The notes under the pieces are model-generated. The model searched no databases. It saw only the letters and a list, made by a program, of their open reading frames with translations, and was not told the DNA's origin. A program made the position numbers and the translations under genes. From Aminiphilus circumscriptus DSM 16581 (GTDB taxonomy: Bacteria > Synergistota > Synergistia > Synergistales > Aminiphilaceae), in assembly GCF_000526375.1 (NCBI RefSeq), contig NZ_JAFY01000002.1, forward strand, positions 248,001-312,000: 64,000 bases of DNA, written 5' to 3'. Of this stretch, positions 7,749 through 12,283 are shown piece by piece. Numbering within the stretch: position 1 is the stretch's first letter; every line of letters starts with the position of its first letter.

Positions 7749-10700
7749 CTATTTCCCTCCGCCCCAGGAGGCCTTGGCGTAACACTGCAACGCCAGAAGG
7801 ACCGCCGAGGCGGTCTCCAGGGAGTGGAAGCAGGGAAGCCCCTCCTCGATGGCGGCGCGACGGATGGCCATGCCGTCCTTGACCATGCCCACCCGGAGGC
7901 CAGGAACGTTGACGAGGAGCTGCCACCGCTTGCGGCGGATCTCCGCGAGCAGCGCCTCGCCCTTGGGAACGGTCTCCACGGGAAGCCCCCACCGCGCCAG
8001 GTGCGCCGCGGTGCCCGGCGTGGCCTCCACGGTCCATCCCTGAGCCAGAAGAGTCGTGGCAAGGGCGCAGACATCGCCCTTGCGGTCGTCCCGCACGGAG
8101 AGAAGCGCCCGCCCCGGGGCGTCGAGGGCAATTCCCGCGCCCCGGAGTCCCTCCCAGAGCGCCTCCGCCACGGTGTCCGCCACGCCGAGGGCCTCACCCG
8201 TGGACTGCATGCGCGGCCCAAGCCGGGCGTCCACCCCTGGAAGCTTCTCCGTCGAAAAAACCGGCACCTTCACGCCGTAGGGACCTCTGTAGACAAACAA
8301 TCCCAACTGCGGCACCATGTCCACGAGGCGCTCGCCGAGGGCGATGCGCACCGCGAGGTCCACCAGGGGAATTCCCGTGAGCTTGCAGACGATGGGCACG
8401 GTGCGGCTGGCCCTTGGATTGGCCTCGATGACCGTGAGCGCCCCGTCGTGGAGGACGAACTGCACGTTCAGAAGCCCCCTCACGCCGAGGGCGCCTCCGA
8501 GCTTGCGTACCACGTCGAGAATCTCCCGGCGGTGGCGCTCCGTGAGGGAAAGGTCGGGAAAGATCGCCAGGGAATCGCCGGAGTGAATTCCCGCGGGATC
8601 GAGATGTTCGAAGACGCCGGGCACGAGCACGTCCTCCCCGTCGCAGAGGGCGTCCACCTCGAATTCCTTTCCCGGCAGAAAGCGATCCAGCAGCACGTTC
8701 TGCCCCTCTCCCACGGCGAAGGCTTCCTCAAGAACCTCCAGGAGCTCCTCCTCGCCGGTGACCACCCGCATGGCCACACCGCCGAGAACGAAGCTGGGGC
8801 GCACCATGAGAGGATAGCCGAGCTTGCGCGCCTGCTTCACCGCGTCCTCCACGTTCCGCGCCGCGCCGCCCTCCGGCTGCGAGATGCCGAGGCGAGCCAC
8901 GAGGGCGGAAAAGCGCCCCCGGTCCTCCGCAGCATCCACCGCGTCCTGTCCCGTTCCGAGGAGGCGCACTCCCCGGGCGGCGAGTTGCTGTCCGAGCCCC
9001 AGGGAGGTCTGTCCGCCGAACCCCGAGAAGATGCCGAAGACGTTTTCCCGGCGGAGCACCGCGAGAACGTCCTCCTCCGCAAGGGGCTCCACGTAGAGAG
9101 CATCGGAGATGTCGAAATCGGTGCTCACCGTCTCGGGGTTGTTGTTCACCATGATCGACCGCACACCCCGCCGCCGCAAAGCCTCCACGGCCTTGACGCA
9201 GCAGTAGTCGAACTCCACCCCCTGGGCGATGCGGATCGGACCGGAGCCGAGCACTGCCACGGCAGGGGCGCCCGCCGCAGGGCATTCCTCGCCCGCGGCA
9301 CCCCAGACGCCGTAGAAATAGCCCGACCCGGCGGGCACTTCCCCGGCGCAGCCATCCACCTCGCGGAACCCCGGCGCGAGGCCGAGCGCCTCCCGGGCGG
9401 CCTCCACCTCCGCCACAGTGCGCTCCACCACTGCGGCAATGGCCTTGTCGGAGAAGCCCAACACTTTGGCCACCTTGAGCGCTTCCGCCGAAAGCCCCTC
9501 CCTGCGGAGGCGCTCCTCCGCGGCGACGATCCGGGCCATCTCCGACACGAACCAGGGGGCGATCCAGGAACGGCGGGCGATCTCCTCCGCGCTCACTCCC
9601 CGGCGCAGCAGCGTGAAGATGGCCTCGATGCGCCGGTGTGTGGGAGCGAGCACGGCTCTCCAGAGATCCTCCTCCTTCAGATCCGCAAGGCGGGGATCGA
9701 AGAGCGGCTCCGTACCGGTGGAACGGTAGGCCTTGAGCAGTGCCTGGGGAAAGGAAAGTCCGAGGGCGAGAACCTCCCCCGTGGCCTTCATCCGGGTTCC
9801 CAGCACGGGATCCGCCTGGGGAAACGCGTCGAAGGGCCACCGGGGCAACTTCACCGCCACATAGTCCAGAGCAGGCTCGGAAAGAGCGCTGCCGACGCCG
9901 GTGACGGGATTGGGCATCTCCGTGAGGGTACGCCCAAGGGCAATTTTGGCGGCGATGCGTGCGATGGGATATCCCGTGGCCTTGCTTGCCAGGGCGCTGG
10001 AACGGCTGGCCCTGGGGTTTACCTCGATGACGGCGTAATCATCCCCGTCCGGAGAGACCGCGAGCTGCACGTTGCAGGCCCCTCGCACGTCCAGAGCCTC
10101 CACGATGCGGAGCGACGCGGAGCGGAGGCGCTGCCACTGGCAGTCCGTGAGCGTGAGCACCGGCGAGACCACCACGGAATCTCCCGTGTGGACGCCCATG
10201 GGATCCACGTTCTCCATGCTGCACACGCAGAGGGCGTTGCCGGAAGCGTCCCGGACCACCTCCGCCTCGATCTCCCGCCACCCCTCCAGGTAGCGCTCCA
10301 CCAGGACGCGCCTCACCGGAGAGGCCCGAAGTCCCGCCTCGACGCAGGCATCAAGTTCCGCGGCGGAGCGGGCCACGCCGCTCCCCGTGCCGCCCAGGGT
10401 GAAATCGGGTCGCACGATGAGTGGAAAAGGAGTCGTCGCGGCAAAGACTCTCGCGGCGGCGACATCGGCAACGCAGACACTCGCCACCACGGGCTCCCCG
10501 ATGTCGAGCATGGTCTGCCGGAAGGCCTCGCGTCCCTCGGCGCGGGCAACGGTTTCCACGGGCGTGCCCAGAACGCGGGTACCGTAGCGCTCCCAGATGC
10601 CCCGCTCCGCGCAGGTGACGCAGAGGTTCAGCGCCGTCTGTCCTCCAAGGGTCGCCACCACCCCGTCGGGGCGGTGCACCTGGAGAATCTCCTCCACCAC

Positions 10701-10979
10701 GTCGGGCAGGAGCGGCTTGAGATAGACCACGTCCGCCACGTCCGGATCGGTCTGAATGGTGGCGGGATTGCTGTTCAGGAGGATCACCGTGCACCCTTCC
10801 TCCTTGAGCGCCCGGCAGGCCTGGCTGCCCGAGTAGTCGAACTCGGCGGCCTGACCGATGCGGATCGGCCCCGATCCCAGAACGAGAATCTTTCGAGCGC
10901 CGGAGGAACGATCCACCACCGGAGACGGTGCTGCGGCGGTGGATCCGGAGCGCGTTCCGAAATCGAGCTCACGCGTCAT
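7749..10979 (-). CDS. carB: carbamoyl-phosphate synthase large subunit
   Basis: A 1076-residue protein of full family length (E. coli about 1073). It has the internal duplication of the family: the ATP-grasp N-half starts GSGPIRIGQAAEFDYSG (near residue 34) and the C-half repeats GSGPIRIAQGVEFDY (near 575). EVNPRASRSSALASKATGYP and EANPRASRTVPIVCKLTG are the paired ATP-binding segments. A C-terminal MGS-like allosteric domain follows from about residue 940. The enzyme makes carbamoyl phosphate from bicarbonate, ATP and ammonia channelled from CarA, for arginine and pyrimidine synthesis. The ATG at 10977-10979 overlaps the carA stop by 11 bases, so translation is coupled. Confidence 0.97.
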   Translation of the reverse strand: MTRELDFGTRSGSTAAAPSPVVDRSSGARKILVLGSGPIRIGQAAEFDYSGSQACRALKEEGCTVILLNSNPATIQTDPDVADVVYLKPLLPDVVEEILQVHRPDGVVATLGGQTALNLCVTCAERGIWERYGTRVLGTPVETVARAEGREAFRQTMLDIGEPVVASVCVADVAAARVFAATTPFPLIVRPDFTLGGTGSGVARSAAELDACVEAGLRASPVRRVLVERYLEGWREIEAEVVRDASGNALCVCSMENVDPMGVHTGDSVVVSPVLTLTDCQWQRLRSASLRIVEALDVRGACNVQLAVSPDGDDYAVIEVNPRASRSSALASKATGYPIARIAAKIALGRTLTEMPNPVTGVGSALSEPALDYVAVKLPRWPFDAFPQADPVLGTRMKATGEVLALGLSFPQALLKAYRSTGTEPLFDPRLADLKEEDLWRAVLAPTHRRIEAIFTLLRRGVSAEEIARRSWIAPWFVSEMARIVAAEERLRREGLSAEALKVAKVLGFSDKAIAAVVERTVAEVEAAREALGLAPGFREVDGCAGEVPAGSGYFYGVWGAAGEECPAAGAPAVAVLGSGPIRIAQGVEFDYCCVKAVEALRRRGVRSIMVNNNPETVSTDFDISDALYVEPLAEEDVLAVLRRENVFGIFSGFGGQTSLGLGQQLAARGVRLLGTGQDAVDAAEDRGRFSALVARLGISQPEGGAARNVEDAVKQARKLGYPLMVRPSFVLGGVAMRVVTGEEELLEVLEEAFAVGEGQNVLLDRFLPGKEFEVDALCDGEDVLVPGVFEHLDPAGIHSGDSLAIFPDLSLTERHRREILDVVRKLGGALGVRGLLNVQFVLHDGALTVIEANPRASRTVPIVCKLTGIPLVDLAVRIALGERLVDMVPQLGLFVYRGPYGVKVPVFSTEKLPGVDARLGPRMQSTGEALGVADTVAEALWEGLRGAGIALDAPGRALLSVRDDRKGDVCALATTLLAQGWTVEATPGTAAHLARWGLPVETVPKGEALLAEIRRKRWQLLVNVPGLRVGMVKDGMAIRRAAIEEGLPCFHSLETASAVLLALQCYAKASWGGGK

Positions 10980-12030
10980 GGGAGGCCTCCTTGGCGAGAT
11001 GCTGCAGAAAGGAATCGAAGAGAAACGCCGTGTCCCGGGGACCGGGACACGCCTCGGGGTGGAACTGCACCCCCCAGGCGGGGACGTTCCTGGAGGCAAT
11101 GCCCTCCACCGTGCCGTCCCCCAGGTGACGGAAGGTGGCGAAAAGGCCCGCCCCGTCGAGGGTCTCCTCCACCACGGCGTAGCCGTGATTCTGACTCGTC
11201 ACGTACCCGCGGCGGCTCTCCAGGTGCAGCACGGGCTGGTTGGTTCCCCGATGCCCGTAGGGGAGCTTCGCCGTGCGGGCACCGCAGGCCTGGGCGAGAA
11301 GCTGCGTGCCCAGGCAGATGCCGAAGAGCGGCACCTTGCCGAGGAGGCGCGTCACCACGGCGGTCTCCTTCCGGAGCACCGCGGGATCCCCCGGGCCGTT
11401 GCTCAGCACCACTCCGGCGGGGTTCCAGGCAAGAATCTCCTCCGCGGTGGTCGAGGCGGGAACGCGAATCACCCGGCACCCATGATTCTCGAGGCTCCGG
11501 AGGATGTTCCGTTTCACCCCGTAGTCCACGAGGACCACCGTAGGGCCGTCTCCTCCTGTGGCGCTCGTTTCGGAACAGGTCACCGTCCGGACCAGCGAAT
11601 CCGGAAGGACCTGGAGACGTGGCGCCTCCGGATCCCGGGCCAAACGCCCCATAAGGGTCCCCCGCTCCCGAAGGCGTAACACGAGGTTACGGCAGTCCAC
11701 TCCCGTCACGAGAGGCACGTTCCATTCGGCAAGCCACTCTCCGAGCTGGCGAACCCCCGGAAGCGGTGTGGACTCCAATCCCTGCACCACCGCCGCGGAA
11801 ACCCATGGGCGGATTCCCTCAAGGGCATCCGCGTCCACCCCGTAGATCCCCTGGGACGGAAAGGTGAAGACCAGCATCTGTCCGCAATAGGAAGGATCCG
11901 AAAGAGACTGGGCATATCCTCCCATGGACGTGGAAAAGACAACTTCCCCGTCCAGCGCCGCCTTCAGGCCGAAGGGCGCGTTTCCGCGCCACCGTGTCCC
12001 GTCGGCGAGCGTAAGCCATACCGTTTCCAT
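10969..12030 (-). CDS. carA: carbamoyl-phosphate synthase small (glutaminase) subunit
   Basis: A 353-residue class I glutamine amidotransferase. The N-terminal CPSase domain (METVWLTLADGTRWRG, then FSTSMGGYAQSLSDPSY) is followed by the triad GATase: nucleophile in FGICLGTQLLAQ, catalytic His and Glu in WGVQFHPEACPGP, and the oxyanion-region LSNGPGDP. It releases ammonia from glutamine for CarB. The start is the ATG at 12028-12030 with GGAGGTG upstream. A longer in-frame reading to 12120 would run through the leader terminator and is rejected. Expression is probably set by the leader region described separately. Confidence 0.97.
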   Translation of the reverse strand: METVWLTLADGTRWRGNAPFGLKAALDGEVVFSTSMGGYAQSLSDPSYCGQMLVFTFPSQGIYGVDADALEGIRPWVSAAVVQGLESTPLPGVRQLGEWLAEWNVPLVTGVDCRNLVLRLRERGTLMGRLARDPEAPRLQVLPDSLVRTVTCSETSATGGDGPTVVLVDYGVKRNILRSLENHGCRVIRVPASTTAEEILAWNPAGVVLSNGPGDPAVLRKETAVVTRLLGKVPLFGICLGTQLLAQACGARTAKLPYGHRGTNQPVLHLESRRGYVTSQNHGYAVVEETLDGAGLFATFRHLGDGTVEGIASRNVPAWGVQFHPEACPGPRDTAFLFDSFLQHLAKEASHDA

Positions 12031-12055: not shown

Positions 12056-12080
12056 AAAAAATGGGGCCGAAACGGCCCCA
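12056..12080 (-). terminator. intrinsic terminator in the carAB leader (attenuator)
   Basis: The minus-strand transcript folds TGGGGCCG with CGGCCCCA (12080-12073 and 12069-12062) around TTT, followed by six U (12061-12056). It ends only 25 bases before the carA start codon and downstream of the carAB promoter, so it must be bypassed for expression. Confidence 0.85.
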
Positions 12081-12134
12081 CGGAGCGTACCTCATCCGAG
12101 CAACGGAACAGAAAGAACAAGAATCCCTCGCCGG

Positions 12135-12218
12135 CTACGCATCCGAAAGGAGGCCGTCTGTTGCCACGACCTCACATCTGCGCTCCTTTGCGAAGAAATT
12201 CTTGTTCCTTGAATACAT
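12135..12218 (-). CDS. putative 27-residue leader peptide of carAB
   Basis: This short ORF is too small for standard calls. GGAGGTG sits seven bases before an ATG at 12216-12218. The peptide starts MYSRNKNFFAKERRC and ends at TAG (12135-12137). Arg codons are at positions 4, 13 and 14, the last two adjacent (CGC AGA). Just after them, ACGGCCTC (12157-12150) can pair with GGGGCCGT in the 5' arm of the terminator at 12056-12080. A ribosome stalled at the Arg pair would leave this segment free and prevent termination. The function is inferred from this layout only; three Arg in 27 is suggestive, not conclusive. Confidence 0.5.
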   Translation of the reverse strand: MYSRNKNFFAKERRCEVVATDGLLSDA

Positions 12219-12248
12219 CAAAAGCACCTCCGGTTTCTTTCGGCGGAC

Positions 12249-12254
12249 ATTATA
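12249..12254 (-). promoter_or_regulatory. -10 box of the carAB promoter
   Basis: A perfect TATAAT on the minus strand lies about 30 bases upstream of the leader ORF and 219 bases before carA. No strong -35 is seen at 16-18 bases. The promoter lies directly after the znu terminator. Confidence 0.55.
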
Positions 12255-12283
12255 CACAAGGAAACAAACTATGTACAGGGGTG

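Follow-up and report, generated by a model that had tools for sequence, protein, structure and literature searches.

A predicted arginine-sensing attenuator in the leader of the carAB operon of Aminiphilus circumscriptus

The carAB operon of Aminiphilus circumscriptus DSM 16581 is probably controlled by a ribosome-mediated transcription attenuator responsive to arginyl-tRNA, a reading to which we assign a probability of roughly 0.6. The parts of the leader, their order, the position of the switch and its conservation in one congener are established by sequence and computation. The operon lies on the minus strand of a window of 64,000 nt, which is the whole stretch of DNA analyzed here (GCF_000526375.1, NZ_JAFY01000002.1 positions 248,001-312,000; coordinates below are window positions). 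It comprises carA (10972..12030, TIGR01368), which starts at an ATG at 12030 behind its own Shine-Dalgarno sequence, and carB, encoding the large subunit of carbamoyl-phosphate synthase (7749..10925, TIGR01369 and NF003671); both scores far exceed the NCBIfam cut-offs. The leader elements, all on the minus strand, occupy positions 12277-12056, directly 5' of carA. Further upstream, a long hairpin with a T-run (12358-12286) lies 3' of a zinc transporter permease gene and is probably the terminator of that operon. Because the zinc transporter operon ends in this terminator-like hairpin of its own, carAB probably forms a unit independent of it.

The leader opens with a sigma-70-type promoter, TGTACA-17-TATAAT (12249..12277), which scores 10/12 in a consensus scan, has the same hexamers in the congener and was found once against 0.2 expected in shuffles. 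A Shine-Dalgarno sequence, GGAGGTG (12225..12231), also unaltered in the congener, precedes a leader ORF of 27 codons (MYSRNKNFFAKERRCEVVATDGLLSDA, 12135..12218) with Arg codons at AGG4, CGC13 and AGA14, the last two being the candidate control codons (12177..12182). The stop codon is separated by a U-rich stretch from an intrinsic terminator 53 nt downstream, which consists of a 9-bp stem (12081-12061) followed by U6 (12056..12081). A promoter, a Shine-Dalgarno sequence and a short ORF thus share one leader, and an intrinsic terminator lies between the ORF and carA, as in classical attenuators. The original prediction, which proposed a leader-peptide attenuator at this site, had named the promoter, the Shine-Dalgarno sequence, the 27-codon ORF, Arg13-14, an 8-bp sequestering segment and the U6 terminator, and all are present base for base. 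It had also called the Arg content modest. At 3/27 (∼11%), the content is indeed at chance level, equal to the random-ORF expectation at the same G+C, and Arg enrichment was for this reason rejected as evidence for the leader ORF. Among the Arg codons of six genes in the window, AGA is the least used (7/278), a rarity that does not tell the leader from a random ORF.

Within and beyond the ORF, the RNA contains segments that can pair in two mutually exclusive ways. Strand 1 (GAGGTCGT, 12166..12173) forms a protector hairpin with strand 2 (ACGGCCTC, 12150..12157) in the minimum free energy (MFE) fold. In stalled-ribosome folds, strand 2 is the 5' part of an antiterminator and pairs with strand 3 (GGGGCCGT, 12072..12079), which MFE and stalled-ribosome folds show to be common to antiterminator and terminator; this complementarity (12157-12150 with 12079-12072) spans the 8 bp originally described. 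The complete antiterminator is about twice as long. In stalled-ribosome folds the ACGGCCUC:GGGGCCGU pairing is extended by that of CGGAUGCGUA (12145-12136, stop codon within) with UACGCUCCG (12089-12081), so that a second segment, strand 2' (CGGATGCGTA, 12136..12145), pairs with strand 3' (TACGCTCCG, 12081..12089). A long outer stem, with its 3' strand at 12108..12129, is found in the MFE folds of A. circumscriptus and its congener and pairs with codons ∼4-9 (12209-12191) in the absence of a ribosome.

The behavior of these alternatives under translation was modeled by folding the RNA free 3' of a ribosome placed at each leader codon and computing the probability of the terminator hairpin. This probability is ∼0.9-0.97 at most stall positions. 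It drops to 0.32, 0.05, 0.16 and 0.47 when codons 13, 14, 15 and 16, respectively, occupy the A site, climbs back to ∼0.9 by codon 18 and stands at 0.97 with the ribosome at the stop codon. The minimum falls on the tandem Arg codons, and varying the ribosome footprint from 9 to 16 nt shifts the low-terminator window by at most one codon. The modeled fall from 0.97 to 0.05 at codon 14 agrees with the proposal that a ribosome stalled on the Arg codons would favor read-through. Among 150 dinucleotide-preserving shuffles of the region from codon 11 to the terminator, a comparable drop occurred anywhere in 6 and at codons 13-15 in 1; none combined a drop at codons 13-15 with a subsequent recovery at codons 21-28. 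The chance that a tandem Arg pair lands in the switch window is ∼4/27 by rough estimate. In silico, by stall folding and the 150 shuffles, the antiterminator excludes the terminator and is exposed only on stalling at the control codons.

We infer from this anatomy that the leader ORF is translated, that ribosomes stall within it and that arginine is the signal in vivo. In the proposed mechanism, transcription would begin ∼8 nt past TATAAT and a ribosome would start on the 27-codon leader. With abundant Arg-tRNA, the ribosome would reach the stop codon and, because this codon is part of strand 2', would cover that strand; strand 3 would then pair with strand 4 and transcription would terminate. 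When Arg-tRNA is scarce, the ribosome would stall at CGC13-AGA14 and cover strand 1, leaving strands 2 and 2' to pair with strands 3 and 3'; the terminator would be blocked and carAB transcribed. If no ribosome is present, the RNA would adopt the long outer stem together with the 1:2 hairpin, and termination would follow. A second layer is probably provided by a repressor that binds 29-bp-spaced operators overlapping the leader start and sets initiation.

Conservation was assessed at the family level in four genomes: the window genome (G000), its congener (G001), and G002 and G003, which belong to other genera; a scan of genome contigs with carA yielded no close relatives. The carA gene of G001 is 97% identical to that of G000, and its leader (MHTGNRNFFAKERRCGAAATDGLLSDA) has an ORF of equal length, keeps Arg-Arg-Cys and ends in an identical terminator. 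The two genomes differ at 14/223 four-fold sites of carA, 11/84 sites of the leader ORF and 0/28 sites of the terminator; the ORF overall, via its N-terminal codons, diverges faster than the four-fold sites. The changes are unevenly placed: codons 7-15, which include AKERRC, carry 2, both synonymous; codons 2-6 and 16-18 carry 9, every one in an amino-acid-altered codon; and codons 19-27 are the same in both genomes. Strand 1 (codons 16-18) carries three changes, two of which preserve its pairing, and the outer stem persists in G001 despite a 6-nt deletion. Stall folding of the G001 leader gives reduced termination at codons 14-15, plus low terminator probability at codons 9-12. The switch is predicted by folding in both G000 and G001; the antiterminator strands are invariant between these two genomes and therefore yield no covariation evidence.

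In other genera the picture is different. The carA leader of G002 encodes MKRRCRHVWGGEKVESGLFRRVP, with five Arg codons (5/23) and a Cys after RR as in G001; that of G003 contains a 42-codon ORF, and that of G176 a 9-codon ORF ending at the terminator. Terminators 5' of carA are also present in G002, G003 and G176, and in G020 by reading of the sequence. Equilibrium folding predicted no Arg-dependent alternative fold in the carA leaders of G002, G003, G176 and G020, all from other genera and all with a terminator and a short ORF. A conserved attenuator in other genera was accordingly rejected, partial transcripts of G002 included. The full switch is found in only two closely related genomes, so the mechanism is supported for one genus only, and the expectation that relatives would share the leader ORF holds for the congener. 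Two further candidates for conservation were set aside: the ‘NQSF’ N-terminus common to the leader peptides of G003, G176 and G020 is accounted for by operator box 2, described below, and was not counted as peptide conservation, and the co-occurrence of a leader ATG with a terminator is too weak (5 leaders with both, 14 with the ATG only).

The original prediction is thus supported in its anatomy, its order of elements and its logic, with a sharp predicted switch on the tandem Arg codons; its reach is confined to the genus, and it missed a pair of operators. When 86 regions upstream of carA from across the phylum were compared, two 14-bp dyads, approximately TRAACNNNNRKTYA, emerged near the transcription start. 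The best-scoring pair is spaced by 29 nt in 24/37 genera and by 30 nt in 6/37. In A. circumscriptus, box 1 (GAAACCGGAGGTGC, 12224..12237) contains the leader Shine-Dalgarno sequence, and box 2 (GGAACAAGAATTTC, 12195..12208), 29 nt from box 1, coincides with codons 4-8 of the leader ORF. A whole-phylum pattern search located the pair also 5' of lysW-lysX, of an ornithine aminotransferase gene and of amino-acid-binding transporter genes, all of which are arginine-related. Because the promoter itself carries the pair in G002 and in family f3, the pair is a DNA operator, and the alternative of an RNA element was rejected. Paired boxes spaced by ∼29 bp recall the ArgR operators of Bacillus. Paired palindromic operators near the promoter are present here with this spacing and the ArgR gene is absent: no recognizable ArgR was found in G000, and only 2/188 genomes of the phylum contain one over the cut-off. 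Control of carAB by ArgR was rejected on this ground, and the box pair points to a putative arginine regulator. As the boxes overlap the Shine-Dalgarno sequence and codons 4-8, arginine control at initiation is likely too, and carAB is probably under dual arginine control.

The operator pair is a strong rival of the attenuator as well as its likely partner. As a rival, it would mean that a DNA-binding repressor at the 29-bp-spaced operators exerts the arginine control, that the start of the leader ORF is a by-product of the operator, and that the terminator sets only a basal level. The AACCNNAGGTG within the operator resembles a Shine-Dalgarno sequence, the boxes coincide with the Shine-Dalgarno sequence and codons 4-8, most genera keep the pair at carA with a spacing of exactly 29 nt, the pair recurs at other arginine-related genes, and its position on the promoter in G002 and family f3 is operator-like. 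Such a repressor acting alone would leave unexplained the terminator, the composite antiterminator and the position of the switch on the Arg codons, and ArgR itself is not recognizable. We consider this explanation unlikely, although it survives better than the other alternatives to the attenuator.

An attenuator of the same build could instead respond to general translation or to another amino acid (Cys15, Lys11 or Phe8-9). The switch window reaches C15 and E16 in G000 and codons 9-12 in G001, and the Cys after RR recurs in both G001 and G002. The minimum is nevertheless at AGA14, and carbamoyl phosphate feeds the synthesis of arginine and pyrimidines, not that of Cys, Lys or Phe, which makes this reading improbable. 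It is more doubtful still that there is no regulation at all, with a chance ORF lying before a weak or unused terminator. Arg frequency at the random level and the close relationship of G000 and G001 would fit such a view; the shuffle control, the full conservation of the U6 terminator and the presence of terminators 5' of carA elsewhere argue against it. Least probable is pyrimidine sensing, through RNA polymerase pausing of the pyrBI/pyrE type or PyrR binding: the U-rich stretch that separates the stop codon from the terminator, the PyrR encoded 5' of pyrB in G000 and the pyrimidine attenuation proposed for Pseudomonas aeruginosa carA (cited in PMC4997734) would favor it, but the ORF stops 53 nt before the terminator, so that a ribosome following RNA polymerase closely would leave the terminator uncovered, which makes a pyrBI-type mechanism unlikely, and Rfam covariance models matched no PyrR site, T-box or other Rfam family in the carA leader. 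In G000, pyrR lies 5' of pyrB (L222), an order which suggests that the pyrimidine genes are probably PyrR-controlled, separately from carAB.

An arginine-sensing attenuator at carAB would resemble the trp, his and leu attenuators in its promoter, its control-codon ORF, its mutually exclusive antiterminator and terminator, the placement of the terminator before the first gene, and the outcome of stalling, which is read-through. It differs from them in having only tandem control codons and in its arginine specificity at carAB. In two comparative surveys (PMC1262725, PMC2965389), the attenuators named are those of trp, leu, ilv, his, thr and phe, and in Escherichia coli attenuation is stated to act on no arginine gene (PMC6245113). 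Classical attenuation is established for these six pathways and not for arginine biosynthesis. Arg codons do serve as sensors elsewhere: in the Salmonella speF leader (orf34, 34 codons), consecutive Arg codons 12-13 sense arginine (PMC6386406), and in Staphylococcus aureus rbfL rare Arg codons pause ribosomes (PMC13009471). The speF leader shares the two consecutive Arg codons with that of carAB, but it acts on an ornithine decarboxylase gene by means of Rho, RNA decay and translation, with no intrinsic terminator before a biosynthetic operon. A leader peptide has been reported 5' of carA in P. aeruginosa, with pyrimidine attenuation proposed (cited in PMC4997734); the attenuation signal proposed there is pyrimidine, arginine acts separately at the transcriptional level, and the lineage is unrelated.

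In fungi, the arginine attenuator peptide (CPA1/arg-2) stalls the ribosome at high arginine and blocks translation. The carAB leader would work in the opposite sense, as a stall at low arginine would relieve termination. Arginine T-box leaders offer another parallel, since they control an arginine gene through Arg-tRNA charging at the RNA level, and one is present at argG in G000; the carA leader differs in having no T-box match. The kind of attenuator is therefore known, and its arginine specificity at carAB, together with the argG leader, is new within the literature searched. If confirmed, an Arg-specific carAB attenuator would widen the code of control amino acids and reveal how an ArgR-less lineage controls a branch-point enzyme.

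The argG leaders supply the regulon context. A T-box (RF00230, 100-112 bits) lies 5' of argG in 4/4 genomes of the family, with AGA or CGC (Arg) as specifier in the alignments, and it is overlapped by an Arg-rich ORF preceded by a Shine-Dalgarno sequence (MNALHGFRRARRIRPVTAFISQNRVMTGRVGRRLVAREEAP in G000 and G001, MSGTVRRRRRGRCDF... in G002, MDGLFRLRRRRMRCRC... in G003). In G000 this leader is at L231:1050-1349, and further loci combining a T-box with an Arg-rich ORF are L229, L230, L232, L236, L237, L263-L272, L274 and L277-L282. Among the sampled genomes, the arrangement, often with RRARRIRP, occurs in seven families (f1, f2, f3, f4, f8, f9 and f10); no example turned up in the genomes sampled from f5 and f6, and those sampled from f7 and f11 have the T-box at argG and no Arg-rich ORF. 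Within the Arg runs, 97/119 Arg codons are the rare AGA or CGA. Measurements on f1, f4 and f10 leaders put the T-box start 58-70 nt into the ORF and the ORF end 60-66 nt inside the T-box. The front edge of a ribosome positioned on the Arg run would lie at nt 45-54, shortly before the T-box begins.

This geometry suggests a possible gate. During translation the ribosome would break up stem I of the T-box, whereas a ribosome stalled on the Arg run would leave the T-box free to bind uncharged tRNA-Arg, joining two RNA sensors of one tRNA pool in a single transcript. Full-text literature searches found no report in which a leader peptide accompanies an argG T-box, and none on Synergistetes in connection with T-box and arginine. 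The occurrence of Arg-rich leader ORFs in this lineage raises the prior for the carAB attenuator. The broader proposal, that an ArgR-less phylum uses Arg leader peptides in two designs, a classical attenuator at carAB and a ribosome-gated T-box at argG, is tentative, and we place it just short of even odds.

Several other features of carA regions were observed. Upstream of the carA promoter in families f8 and f6 (e.g. L107, L108, L113 and L116), TGCAACCGATTGAAC and TGCAATCGATTGCA resemble a LacI-family (PurR-type) operator. In one genus of family f6 (g27, L118-L120), the carA match lies inside an open frame of 1402 codons, which suggests a carA-carB fusion, and one in-frame TGA was reported within the match. 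Finally, the region upstream of carA in the congener (L002) has a good Shine-Dalgarno sequence and an ATG within the leader (AAGGAGCGCAGATG), in a frame continuous with carA; at the counterpart in A. circumscriptus, the ATG is immediately followed by TGA.
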